Below the pieces are notes generated by a model. That model searched no databases. It was not told the DNA's origin and was given only the letters and a program-made list of their open reading frames with translations. Made by a program: the position numbers and the translations under genes. DNA of 64,000 bases from Nannobrachium achirus. Taxonomy: Eukaryota; Chordata; Actinopteri; Myctophiformes; Myctophidae. This document shows, one piece after another, positions 1,567-60,436 of the stretch. Numbering within the stretch: the stretch's first letter is position 1; every line of letters starts with the position of its first letter. Location: the NCBI GenBank assembly GCA_963921795.1, contig OY997650.1:16005935-16069934 (forward strand), written 5' to 3'.

Positions 1567-1786
1567 AGTGGTTCCCAAACCTTTTAGCTCGAGACCCAAA
1601 ACAGAAATGAGATGTTTACCCGGGACCCAAACTAGTGAAAACAGCGGATCTACAAGCTCACAACACGTCGATTCACGCCGCATTGTGAACTTGTAGATCA
1701 GTTATTTTCTTAAACATTTGTGTTCTGATTTATGGAAAGCCCTTAAAATGTGTCCGCGACCCACAAATGAGTTTGGGAACCAGAGG
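1567..1786. mobile_element. hAT-type MITE (CAGTGGTTCCCAAA family) with hairpin
   Basis: The ends AGTGGTTCCCAAACC and GTTTGGGAACCAGAGG are imperfect inverted repeats, flanked by the exact 8-bp duplication CTTTGACC (1559-1566 and 1787-1794). The 8-bp duplication and CAGTGG-type ends are typical of hAT. No coding capacity. The hairpin module lies in its centre. Confidence 0.85.
1637..1709. repeat. hairpin module copy
   Basis: Arms GAAAACAGCGGATCTACAAG and CTTGTAGATCAGTTATTTTC, with the inner part CTCACAACACG against CGCATTGTGAA. Several stem mismatches. Confidence 0.85.
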
Positions 1787-2458
1787 CTTTGACCTTGTAA
1801 AAGGAGTACAATGGCTGAAGAAATGGTTCAAATGTACTGCAGGAAGGGCCACGTCTTGCGGTGCAGCGGACTGGAAACCCCAAACCACTCTGAGAAAAAG
1901 CACCTGGTGCCTCGAGGCTTGAGCCATATCACATTAAAACAGCAATATTGAAGTACACGTGTCAGAAAAATAGAAATAGAAAAGGTCACGAAAAATAAAA
2001 CACACACAGTATTATTTAGAACGAACAGTAAAATTCTAGATATTTGGGATGATTTGGTACTTGGTCTTAAGAGCTTTACACACATCAAGAGTTGTTATGA
2101 AAACAGTTTGTGCTTAGCTCACAACCAAATACCTATTTATCAGTGGGGGGGGGCTGTTTGATTATGCAAAAGAGGTTATGCTGACTTCTCAAAAGGTCTT
2201 TGATGTGCTCAAAAACAAAACAATCTCTATCTGAGCCGTGCATAAAACCGGGAGATAAGATTCATGTTTTTAATTAGCATTTTTATACCGCTCATGCAGA
2301 CGGAATTCATATAGTAAAATCTGCAGTGTTCATTTATCCATTTCTGAGAGTGCCCAAATGTAATCAAAGGGACCTGTTGAGGGTCTCATTGGTTATATTT
2401 GTACACTCTAAAGAGTTGAACGAACACTGAGGAGTTTACTGATGTGTAGGTAAGATCT

Positions 2459-2764
2459 CTTCCTGAGAGATGTGTGATGTGAAAATAAAGTTGAATTAAA
2501 TTATTCTAAGACTGCTTTGACCAGTGGTTCCCAAACCTTTTAGCTCGACACCCAAAACAGAAATGAGATGTTTACCCGGGACCCAAACTAGTGAAAACAG
2601 CGGATCTACAAGCTCACAACACGTCGATTCACGCCGCATTGTGAACTTGTAGATCAGCTATTTTCTTAAACATTTGTGTTCTAATTTATGGAAAGTCCTC
2701 AATTTTTCTTTGATTTCTTCAAGAAATTACTGGAATAAAAAAAATCATTGAATTTTGTTTTTAG
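2459..2764. repeat. duplicate of 1502-1737, truncated MITE next to exon
   Basis: 2459-2698 repeats 1502-1737 almost base for base, including 65 bp of flank (CTTCCTGAGAGATGTGTGATG) ahead of the MITE end. It then carries more MITE interior, also seen at 9470-9530, up to about 2764. It stops about 13 bp from the donor of the exon at 2779. Confidence 0.8.
2593..2665. repeat. hairpin module copy
   Basis: Same sequence as the 1637 copy, with AGCTATTTTC at its right end. Confidence 0.85.
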
Positions 2765-2778
2765 GTAAGGTCTCTGAC

Positions 2779-2903
2779 CTGTCAGTGGACTCTTGGGCCA
2801 GGGAGAGGAGGCGGGACAGAAAGTCCTCATGGGATAGGCTCTGAGAGCCGTCACTCCACCGCGGCTCACTGCTGGAACGCAACGCGCACAACGCCTGGAG
2901 AAC
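2779..2903 (-). CDS. thada: THADA internal exon (fifth in window)
   Basis: Minus-strand exon of 125 nt: 41 codons plus 2 nt (AG), so it ends in phase 2. It begins VLQALCALRSSSEPRW, which continues ...HPQCLAT of the previous exon as a natural helix, and then reads SLSHEDFLSRLLSLAQ and ESTDR. The acceptor is CTCTCAG then GTTCTC (AG at 2904-2905), with a purine-rich plus strand (pyrimidine tract on the transcript) to about 2985. The donor is GACAG then GTCAGA (GT at 2777-2778). A MITE remnant ends about 13 bp beyond this donor. No following exon was recognised between 1 and 2700. Confidence 0.9.
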
Positions 2904-3006
2904 CTGAGAGCAGAGAGAGGGAAGGAGAGAAAGAGAAGAGACAAGGAAGAGAGAAGGAGAGAAAGCAAGAGAGATACAGGGGGTATTAGGGTTAGAATAG
3001 GGAGAT

Positions 3007-57740: not shown

Positions 57741-58102
57741 CAGGAGTGTCGCACCAAATTCTGGGCCCTGGGCACTTTAACTATTGAACAATAGCAGATC
57801 ACAGTGCCACGCTGCGAGCTTGTAGATCTGCTATTTTTCAAAAATCGTGAAAAAAAAAGTCTTTGAATTATGTGAAGGACCCCCAAAATGATATGTATTT
57901 GGCCATAGACCCCCCCCCCCCATCTCAAAATATTTAGTTCCAGGGACCCCCAGAAGTAAAATTTGAGTTACAAATGTTCGCTTAAAAAATACATATATTC
58001 AAAGATTTGCACACATTTTCACGACTTTTCAAAAATAATTAAGGCCCTCCACCTTGGGCCCGAGAAACTCAGTCCCACTTTTCCCCCCTTGCGACGCCCC
58101 TG
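57741..58102. mobile_element. family M hAT-type element with hairpin
   Basis: CAGGAGTGTCGCACCAAATT ... CTTGCGACGCCCCTG with flanks CAGACAGA and CAGACGGA (7 of 8). Hairpin at 57785-57840 has lost part of its left stem. Confidence 0.82.
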
Positions 58103-58772
58103 CAGACGGAAAACCAGACGGACAGATGGGCGGACGGAGGAGACACAAAGACAAAGGCCCTGTATCAAAGAGAGACAACAGTTAGCATTCCGGAGCTTGC
58201 TGCATGTGTGCATACATGAAATTCATGCACACGAAATCACACCTCTAATGACCAAATCCATGTCCACCCCCCCCTCTCCCCTCATGCAGCTCCATTTGGG
58301 CCCCATATGTTAACTATCAGTGCTAATTTGTCTCATTAAAACCCTTTGCGGAGGAAATGACAGTTTGGAAGGGTGTAATTTTAGAAAGAGGGCTGTCCCT
58401 TGCTGTCCCCATGGGGTCAGGAGCCAGGCGGGTGACTTGGGGGAGGGTTGTGCGTGTTTGTATGTGTACGTGCGTGTGTGAGCGTGTGTGTCTTAAGTCT
58501 GTGTCTCATTTCAGAGGCATATGGAAGGCCCAGTTTCCCCTCTGTAGTGTGTTAACTTAAACAAGCCAGCTCTGAGGAGAGCAGCTAGCAAATGAGCAAC
58601 AGAGTTACAGTACAGCTGAAACATTTGTCGGTTTTAATTGATCAAACTGCAAAACCAACAAGGACACTGGAATTCTCATAAATGATGGCTGATTCTATCA
58701 AGGGACCAGAATCACACGAAAGTGATCAACTATATCAAATTTCACATAATAAAAGCAGTCAAGAAAGTGGTA
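58103..58772. other. intron without recognised feature
   Basis: No exon or clear repeat; short (TG)-rich stretch near 58450-58490. Confidence 0.4.
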
Positions 58773-58945
58773 TATGGGGTGCCTGGTGGCTCAAACAACT
58801 GCTCTGATCTTGAGGACTCAAGTTCGAATGCAACCCCCAACCTGTCTCGAATGCCTCTCCTCTCTCTCTCTCTGCCTTAGTTTTCCCGTCTCTTTGAACC
58901 AACCTGTCTGGAATAAGGCACAAGTACTCCAAAAAATACATCTAA
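58773..58945 (+). mobile_element. tRNA-derived SINE, diverged
   Basis: A-box-like TGGTGGCTCAAAC near 58786 and B-box-like AAGTTCGAATGC near 58820, then CT tract and AATAAGGCACAAGTACTCC. Confidence 0.6.
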
Positions 58946-60031
58946 AAGAAACAGGAAAAGAATAAATGTAGAAAAGAATGTAGGTATTTAGAATTTTAGA
59001 GGACCACCACTACAAACCTCTGTGTTCATTCATCCATTTGCAACACAGAGAGTGTACACATGTTATAAGTGTACCCTCTCAGAGTTAAACTATCAGTGTG
59101 TACTCTGACAAACAGAGCAAAGCACATGGCACGGATCTGCTATGGCTATTTTGACACAAGTACTTTTTTTGGTCCAACACATAAATAAACCAAATAGAAA
59201 CTAGTGGTGCCTGGCACAACTACTTTAAAAACTAAAACCAAACACGTGCCGCCTTTTCTGACCATCAATAGGGAGAAGAAAAAAAAACGGTAACTGTGAG
59301 TTTGACCTCTTAAAAACAGCCCAAGGTCAAAGGTCATGTTGCCAAATGAAAGACCACAACTTCCTATTTGCCGATAATGGTAAACATGTGTCAATCTTTG
59401 ACCGTTTTTCGAGTCATGCTGGACACTATGTAATTTTGAGAAATAACCTTGACCCCTACCAATCTTCGATGGATGGAATTATAGGTCCGAAAGAGAAAGT
59501 AGAACATTGTGTTGTGTTCTCCGAATTGGGGCAGGATAATTATTGTTTTGTTTATAAAATACATATACTTTTAGAAATGCTATTTATTTATTTATAGTTA
59601 AGAGGCACTATTGGTATCAAAACATCTCCCAAAATGTCCAAGCCCTTACACAGGCCTTTTTTTCCACCAAAAAAAATGACAGAAGGATAAAGTAATGGAT
59701 GGAGTGAGGCATGGAGATTGGAGAGAGATGGTGGGGTGTGGACAAGACCAGAGATAAATCATCATCATCATCCCAGCACTCTGAGGTACTGCCAGCACGG
59801 GAGAGAGAACAAGTGAAACAGCCAGTTCCAGAGAAATCATCAGCCATCACCAAACATAATAAATGTTGTCTAGTCATCTCCCCCCTTTTTTTGTTTTCCT
59901 CATCATCATCACCCAGGAAGGTCTGACGCACACACAGAGGCAAGTCTGTGGAAGAATGTGAATAGATCAGAGGGCCGGCGAGGACGGATAGACGATCAGA
60001 GGCGTGAGAGGGAGAGGCGGGGGGATAAAGC
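58946..60031. other. intron without recognised gene
   Basis: An 83-codon frame at 59346-59597 has varied composition but no recognised motif or splice support. Confidence 0.4.
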
Positions 60032-60436
60032 CTAGAATTATTGAATGCTTTAACTATTGAAAAATAGCAGATATACAAGCTCACAGCACGCTGCGAGCTT
60101 GTAGATATGCTATTTTTGAAAAACCGTGATATATACTGTATATATATGTATATATATATATATATATATATATATATATATATATATATATATATATATT
60201 TGGCAAGTCTTTGAGTATATCTTTTTGAAAGTGAACATTTGTAACTCAAATATTTGCTTCTGGGGGGTCCCTGATACAATATTTTGAGATGGGGGGGGGG
60301 TCCCTGATACAATATTTTGAGATGGGGGGGGGGGGGGGGGGGGGGTCCCTGGAACAACATATTTTGAGATGGGGGTCCGTGGCCAAATACATGTCGTTTT
60401 GGGGGTCCTTGGCATGAAACATTTTGAGAACCACTG
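60032..60436. mobile_element. family C hAT-type repeat with internal expansions
   Basis: Right end TTTTGAGAACCACTG. Hairpin at 60059-60120 (GAAAAATAGCAGATATACAA ... GTAGATATGCTATTTTTGAA). A (TA)n of about 70 bp (60131-60200), and TCCCTG...ACAATATTTTGAGATG units with poly-G repeated three times. Confidence 0.75.

Follow-up and report, generated by a model that had tools for sequence, protein, structure and literature searches.

One short palindrome recurs in MITE families of this fish genome that, judging by their ends, were moved by different transposases. Probably, the palindrome, being the core of a TTAA group of MITEs, reached other families on a few independent occasions and has since been amplified together with its hosts.

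Composition and abundance of the hairpin

The hairpin unit of approximately 71 bp is a near-perfect palindrome consisting of the arm AAAATAGC(A/C)GATCTACAAGCTCACAACGC... and its inverse. The window, the whole 64-kb stretch of DNA analysed, contains 59 arms with at most five substitutions. Ten first-order Markov shuffles of the window gave no arm in nine cases and one arm in the remaining case, and a chance origin of the arms was rejected. A hand tally of the arm listing yielded 23 two-armed and 13 one-armed sites, some of the latter possessing a second arm broken by an indel, which is near the approximately 28 two-armed copies and 10 halves of the initial annotation. One arm (61700-61721) is located beyond the span 1637..60120 considered there.

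DNA folding of four copies gave about -37.6 to -38.1 kcal/mol for three of them (z -13 to -15) and a weaker value for the copy at 1638 (-15.5 kcal/mol, z -4.6). The flanks just outside the hairpin are self-complementary for about 6 nt, above the control. Paired changes in the stem filled 61 cells, versus 21 in shuffles (0/500), in 30 of the 51 hairpins of length 71, hand-picked to thin near-duplicates. The Rfam search of the 64-kb window gave no match above the gathering score, and no Pfam domains were found in six ORFs of the window. A microRNA precursor was rejected, the best sub-threshold Rfam match in the 1 kb searched being mir-5880 (39.9 bits vs 97).

The whole-genome arm search proposed in the initial annotation revealed 156,842 exact arms in 1.66 Gb. 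The window includes 15 exact arms and 55 arms with at most four substitutions, and 20 other stretches (188,970 non-N bases) include 37 and 171, respectively; the density of the hairpin in the window is ordinary for this genome, and the module is not peculiar to the window. These stretches start at base 3,000,001 of contigs C1-C20, a choice that is arbitrary and not random, and at least half of two of them (L016 and L020) is N. The loci L029-L070, found by targeted searches, were left out of the density rates and repeat clusters. The G+C content of the genome sample is 41.7%. Self-comparison of the window and the 20 stretches gave repeat clusters, the four largest of which contain 50, 35, 20 and 18 loci, with 29, 21, 9 and 16 of these, respectively, adjoining a hairpin. 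Among the 20 clusters of at least four loci, 17 have at least one hairpin-adjoining locus and three have none. A 20-mer of the arm had no matches in the viral and prokaryote collections IMG/VR and GTDB.

Host families of the hairpin

Table 1. Hairpins and host elements located in the window (positions of the window).
Feature	Position	Hairpin or arm	Strand	Remark
Host A (hAT-like, CAGTGGTTCCCAAAC end)	1638..1708	1638..1708		Second copy 2594-2664, duplicated segment
Host A	9381..9427	9381..9427		Shortened hairpin
Host B, 258 bp	8243..8501	8323-8393		Termini CGTCGTTGTCGGG/CCCGACAACGACG, target duplication AATA
Host B	17080..17250	17160-17203		Damaged hairpin
Host B	53723..53964	53804-53859
Host C composite	11125..11359	11192-11262		Hairpin-bearing TTAA element in outer hAT-like MITE, damaged copy
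Host C composite	26943..27371	27155-27225
Host C composite	28999..29402	29132-29159		Hairpin cut down to 28-bp palindrome
Host C composite with outer MITE	35122..35543	35264-35334
Inner TTAA element of the preceding	~35219-35419			Ends TTAACCACTTGAACC / GGTTCAAGTGGTTAA
Host D	15603..15640	15603..15640		Shortened hairpin, CAGTGGTTCTCAAAC side
Host D	16727..16797	16727..16797
Host D	52287..52357	52287..52357
Host D	53096..53166	53096..53166
Host D	60061..60116	60061..60116
Host E	19548..19959	19664-19734		Ends TAGGGATGGGACGATA
Host E	27606..28023	27848-27908
Host E	48886..49265	48886-48919 (half), 48953-49023 (full)		Internal partial duplication
Host F	21515..21536	21515..21536	-	Single arm, TTAA-group flanks; partner copy 41174-41195
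Diverged hairpin	26441..26497	26441..26497		TTAA-group flank
fam5	39769..39839	39769..39839		37 bp from GGCTGAAGTGGTTAA end
Host G	35870..35936	35870..35936		ATTGTG / CACAAT side stem
fam14	54599..54669	54599..54669		GTGTTGATTTTGTCGAC surroundings
Element with half hairpin	22887..23108	23001-23022		66-68 bp inverted repeat (GGGCCCTATT surroundings) around the half

The hosts C, E, F, fam5 and one side of D have in common the core of a TTAA-flanked, piggyBac-like MITE, in which the hairpin typically lies about 35-50 bp from one end. Outward TTAA-type ends within 100 nt of the arm were matched 24 times over 255 arm flanks, the sequence examined containing 55 such ends altogether. In the flank comparison (300 shuffles), the short side of C resembled that of the diverged hairpin at 26441, of L007, of fam5 and of D, and its long side resembled that of E and of F, with z 5 to 10 in both cases; no similarity of E with fam5 or D was found on the short side. 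Flank homology is present inside the TTAA group only. The flanks of A, B and G are unlike those of the TTAA group (z <2.5) and, apart from a strip of about 9 + 8 bp that adjoins the hairpin in both A and B (z 3.4 for A with B), unlike each other, so that these three hosts share an internal hairpin within unrelated surroundings. Given these unrelated flanks, the palindrome has crossed family borders. The statement of the initial annotation that the hosts share no sequence holds for A, B and G beyond the A/B strip and fails for the hosts with the TTAA core; its view that simple common descent is insufficient likewise stands for A, B and G, several of the other hosts it named being of shared ancestry.

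The inner element of host C has TTAA at both ends and is nested at a TTAA inside another MITE. One locus (L029) represents the empty TTAA site of this outer MITE (40 of 313 candidates scored). Genome-wide, 28,211 filled junctions of C, counted by a pattern that tests the host-TTAA junction and not the hairpin itself, stand against one confirmed empty site. The genome also contains piggyBac-type transposase matches, 116 above the cut-off among the 116 of 952 candidates scored.

Host B is 251-258 bp long with the hairpin and 178-179 bp long without it, and both forms are bordered by A/T-rich 4-bp target duplications; the hairpin-free copies, having duplications of their own, are real transposed elements. 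Its junctions number 51,856 filled and 69 hairpin-free, so in both hosts measured (B and C) hairpin-free junctions, which the initial annotation had proposed to look for, are very rare. By a hand tally, 29 or more of the 69 appear to have lost the hairpin later, between repeats. Both orientations of the hairpin occur in B (50, 25, 12 and 13 in the first 100 places of the filled-junction listing, tallied by hand).

For host A, none of the 40 of 864 candidates scored proved to be an empty site bearing a clear mark of insertion. Three of the 47 reported alignments extend past the junction, and the single readable one (L061) is a deletion. One copy of A (L064) shows, by eye, a 7-of-8 match in a duplication of about 8 bp.

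Origin of the hairpin in its hosts

A hairpin is most like the other hairpins of its own host. The nearest neighbour belonged to the same host in a fraction of 0.851, versus 0.183 in shuffles (maximum 0.361), for 57 non-identical paired units that are 60-80 bp long and come from groups with at least two members. This resemblance indicates that transfer of the hairpin is rare, and it contradicts a free exchange of modules. Also, the hosts do not make up a single family lacking hairpin-free copies, the case in which that annotation expected its interpretation to fail, because the flanks of A, B and G are unrelated, the hairpin-free B copies are real and the TTAA element is nested.

According to the explanation we prefer, a palindrome of about 71-90 bp would be the conserved core of a large and old group of TTAA-inserting, piggyBac-like MITEs and also of a few unrelated families, which it would have entered on a small number of occasions. 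Its entry into C was probably the nesting of a whole TTAA element, as the empty site suggests, and E looks similar but eroded; A, B and G may have received the palindrome by insertion or copying with little or no flank. Each host would then have amplified almost only in its hairpin-bearing form, as was measured for B and C, and the hairpin would have been inherited along with the host. Correction from arm to arm, to which the paired changes point, may keep the palindrome matched and its outer stem host-specific, and slippage or breakage at the palindrome may cause occasional losses. The composites would be moved by the transposases of the hosts, which makes self-movement of the hairpin unnecessary. 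Against this explanation, all hairpin-free B copies may be losses, and the empty C site may instead be a product of precise excision, which piggyBac transposases perform.

It is unlikely that the hairpin alone makes up a minimal transposon of 73 bp, which would consist only of its inverted repeats (GAAAACAGC...GCTGTTTTC) and on insertion duplicate a 6-bp target, ACTAGT for example. The B junction agrees with this, containing one ACTAGT when hairpin-free and two when filled (ACTAGT-G-hairpin-C-ACTAGT), as does the size difference of 258 - 179 = 71 + 2 + 6 bp. However, a clean 6-bp direct repeat beside the hairpin exists in B only, and ACTAGT, which is self-complementary, could belong to the module, A sharing AAACTAGTG...CACTACTT with B; in view of the genome counts and of the G-form losses, less weight was given to this site as proof of insertion, and the 29 hairpin-free junctions mentioned above are best read as losses. 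Over 109 distinct paired units, the hairpins showed no constant target duplication: eight of the units have flanking direct repeats of at least 4 bp, versus about 4.7 in cross-paired controls. With so few direct repeats, the self-mobile mini-element suggested initially is unsupported, and what survives of the proposed colonisation of MITEs is the entry of a hairpin-bearing TTAA element into another MITE. The derivation of all hosts from one old family, with an ancestral hairpin and diverged or replaced termini and flanks, would explain the common TTAA core and the host-specific hairpins; it is already weakened and seems quite improbable, given the flanks of A, B and G and target duplications that differ between hosts (TTAA, 4 bp in B, about 8 bp in the one A copy). 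We regard as very improbable an ongoing recombination or gene conversion among hairpins by which flanks are exchanged and the core is kept uniform: the right flanks of host D beyond TCAATAGTTAAAGCA are of several kinds and B has hairpins in both orientations, but the variants sort strongly by host, and for an inversion an exchange between the arms within a single copy is enough.

It has long been asked why certain MITE families reach very high copy numbers and related ones remain few. In B and C nearly all copies bear the hairpin or its carrier. We tentatively consider, as a rather doubtful possibility, that the palindrome acts as an amplification module that can be transferred. A MITE acquiring it would then leave more copies than its relatives without the hairpin, irrespective of the transposase involved, for instance through help from the hairpin in single-stranded or re-replicative copying when the element transposes. 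In that case one selfish cis-element would have used the host families as vehicles one after another, and amplification by a defined 71-bp sequence would be directly testable; if it has no such role, the hairpin nevertheless documents clearly that modules cross between transposon families.

Comparison with known elements

Among the papers searched, no report of this hairpin element was recognised, and the only close one is that on the CMITEs of Acropora corals. As described in the accessible part of that paper, an internal region of about 75 bp is common to families with different terminal repeats, all with TTAA-type ends, and the elements show TTAA target duplications, a link to piggyBac, composites formed by insertion (CMITE-IN), tandem arrays and an estimated ~1600 copies (Wang et al. 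2010, PMC2872659). The fish elements are alike in the core conserved between families with different ends, the TTAA duplications, the piggyBac link, the composite formed by insertion and the tandem arrays. They differ in that the core is a 71-bp palindrome, is also found in non-TTAA MITEs and reaches 156,842 exact arms, and TTAA duplications do not occur in all hosts, B having 4-bp A/T-rich ones. The description of the coral core in the same part of the paper contains no palindrome, the comparison being one of descriptions (PMC2872659). We call CMITEs the closest known kind and, as set apart by these descriptions, the palindromic core and its spread across families new.

The Angel MITE of teleosts is likewise a fish stem-loop MITE, for which a snap-back amplification model is outlined in a review (PMC12628747, on Izsvak et al. 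1999). By that description, Angel differs in being a MITE family of its own, and the likeness drawn here is one of description. A single-stranded stem-loop integrating by local homology, as for Angel, would suit the cases of A, B and G. A match of the 13-mer GATCTACAAGCTC in one Theileria paper was taken as chance.

The ends TTAACCACTT... / ...AAGTGGTTAA and the empty TTAA site of host C liken the TTAA group to piggyBac-type MITEs, although the hairpin core occurs also in families without TTAA ends. The hosts A and D and the outer MITE of C, which from the look of their CAGTGGTTCCCAAAC-like and CAGGGGTCTTCAAC-like ends we take to be hAT-type MITEs, differ from these in carrying a foreign palindrome.

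Hairpin Module and Its Distribution

The hairpin motif noticed in the initial annotation was borne out by a search allowing up to five substitutions, which found 59 arms in the window, compared to one arm in total in ten shuffles of the same sequence. As tallied by hand, the window contains 23 sites with two arms and 13 with one. Typically, the unit is a palindrome of 71 bp that encloses a short loop; position 9 of the arm is variable and is often A in one arm and C in the other. DNA folding gave about −38 kcal/mol for three of four copies and −15.5 kcal/mol for the copy at 1638. 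The module is spread genome-wide: the proposed whole-genome arm search of the 1.6585-Gb assembly (564 contigs) yielded 78,552 + 78,290 exact arms and none for the reversed control. Twenty arbitrary 10-kb stretches of the genome, comprising 188,970 non-N bases, contained 37 arms that matched exactly and 171 within four substitutions, 38 of the latter being contributed by the tandem composite L026 alone.

Host Families

Flank clustering of 160 units (95 paired and 65 half) resulted in 53 groups, with 48, 17, 13, 9, 6, 6, 5 and 4 members, seven groups of two and 38 single units. The identity of the main hosts was taken from consensus sequences (see the table).

Host families, repeats and duplications
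Feature	Location	Description
Host B		MITE of ~258 bp; ends CGTCGTTGTCGGG (consensus)
Host E		Ends TAGGGATGGGACGATA (consensus)
Host A		Ends CAGTGGTTCCCAAAC (consensus)
Host C		Nest: inner element of ~205 bp, TTAACCACTTGAACC...GGGTTCAAGTGGTTAA, within outer MITE with CAGGGGTCTTCAAC-like ends (consensus)
Host D		One side CAGTGGTTCTCAAAC; opposite side, several alternatives
Host D right flanks	Window 15603–60116	Flank changes past TCAATAGTTAAAGCA into one of several alternatives, TTAA-type and CAGGGGCGTC-type ends among them
Inverted duplication	Window 16327–16726 and 18138–18523	~400 bp, 96% identity; adjoins host D hairpin
Host A pair with hairpin	Window 1501–1708 and 2457–2664	Local duplication, copies ~956 bp apart; 137 bp of left flank at 98.5% identity
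Tandem repeat, twice	Window 42222–42701 and 45505–45868	132/133-bp units, ~3 kb apart; consensus units look reverse-complementary
CA/TG dinucleotide runs	Window 8913–9059, 14222–14369, 33354–33508 and 63595–63748	Perfect, ~150 bp
Tandem composite	L026:3122–7522	Three ~1.67-kb units, several D-type hairpins each; MITE composite become tandem array
fam7 hairpins (L001, L003, L004, L005)	G000:C1 ~26,700–34,600	Four near-identical copies in 8 kb, near contig start
piggyBac transposase matches	G000:C2 ~71.35–71.84 Mb	Dense, mostly stop-free, same strand

GG.T.AAGTGGTTAA-like ends (up to two substitutions) occurred 55 times in all sequence examined. In the 255 arm flanks, such ends pointed outward at a distance of no more than 100 nt from the arm in 24 instances, where the overall density would arithmetically give about 2.6. 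The ends near arms stem from hosts C, D, fam5, fam9 and several single sites. Shuffle tests related the short-side flanks of C, the window hairpin at 26441..26497, locus L007, fam5 and D, and the long-side flanks of C, E and F, with a few weak pairs; they revealed no flank relationship of E with fam5 or D. In the same tests, the flanks of A, B and G showed no relationship to this TTAA-flanked, piggyBac-like group, nor to each other, except for A with B (z 3.4), where the similarity is a common AAACTAGTG. Thus, several of the hosts taken as unrelated in the initial annotation constitute one group, to which at least A, B and G do not belong. The hairpin is present in unrelated MITEs, and a few ancient transfers presumably brought it into A, B and G.

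Inheritance and Arm Matching

A comparison of 57 distinct hairpins placed the nearest neighbour in the same host for a fraction of 0.851, compared to 0.183 in shuffles (maximum 0.361); the hairpin is inherited together with its host. Arm differences are mirrored, with 91.8% for paired cells versus 86.3% in shuffles, and both-side changes involved 15 pairs and 61 cells versus 8.9 and 21.0. Such changes are compatible both with selection for the hairpin and with arm-to-arm correction. The bases directly flanking the hairpin show self-complementarity of a host-specific kind (identity.72,.50,.62,.44,.39 and.49; between-family control.43,.32,.28,.25,.31 and.27), which is the pattern that arm-to-arm correction would give, and the arms have probably been corrected in this way. 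Both orientations of the hairpin exist in host B: a hand tally of the first 100 places listed gave G/A 50, C/C 25, C/A 12 and G/C 13.

Hairpin-Free Host Copies

The search for hairpin-free host copies proposed in the initial annotation was successful for hosts C and B, in both of which the hairpin is near fixation. In host C, the filled left junction, defined by a pattern that leaves out the hairpin itself, was found 28,211 times genome-wide and the empty junction four times (up to three mismatches each). One of the four, L029, also recovered as an outer MITE with a single TTAA, is the one clear empty site and demonstrates a TTAA nesting; the left-hand match of the remaining three is poor. Loci L024 and L016 are host C copies which lack the hairpin through deletion. 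For host A, 40 of 864 candidates were scored, and three of the 47 alignments reported extend beyond the junction; L061, the one read, is a deletion of the hairpin plus both adjoining repeats, and the predicted clean empty site was not seen within this scope.

Wherever both flanks of a host B copy were recognised, in the window or the loci sampled by then, at least one arm was present; genome-wide, 69 hairpin-free junctions (up to two mismatches) were found versus 51,856 hairpin-bearing ones. Duplications of 4 bp are found both for hairpin-free copies of 178–179 bp, which have their own (such as ATAC in L040, or ATAT in L036 and in L048), and for hairpin-bearing ones of 251 and 258 bp; some other copies have no matching duplication. 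A set of copies with 10 extra bases looks like a deletion remnant. The 69 junctions comprise 29 of the G variant, 37 of the C variant and three others. The G variant is common in filled copies, and its 29 hairpin-free junctions are most simply later losses; slippage is a likely cause of hairpin loss. Twenty of the 37 C-variant junctions represent one TTTAGTAC-like type, most read copies of which have common outer flanks, so they were copied within another repeat. Given this composition, the hairpin-free form of host B is not proven to be ancestral.

Host B, alone among the hosts, suggests that the hairpin is a transposon by itself, since ACTAGT flanks the filled hairpin on both sides and is single when the site is empty. 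However, ACTAGT is its own inverse, the same side sequence also occurs in host A, and a single ACTAGT can be restored by losses. Moreover, direct repeats of at least 4 bp accompany 8 of 109 distinct paired units, compared to about 4.7 in a control that cross-paired left flanks with right ones.

Possible Movers and Precedent

The nearest precedent is the coral CMITE group, in which conservation is stronger in a core of ~75 bp than at the ends (PMC2872659). At least 116 genome matches to PF13843, the piggyBac transposase family, exceeded the cut-off, and most are stop-free over the matched stretch; TTAA elements could therefore be movable at present. The run of such matches on G000:C2, a contig of the same genome, is possibly a tandem cluster.
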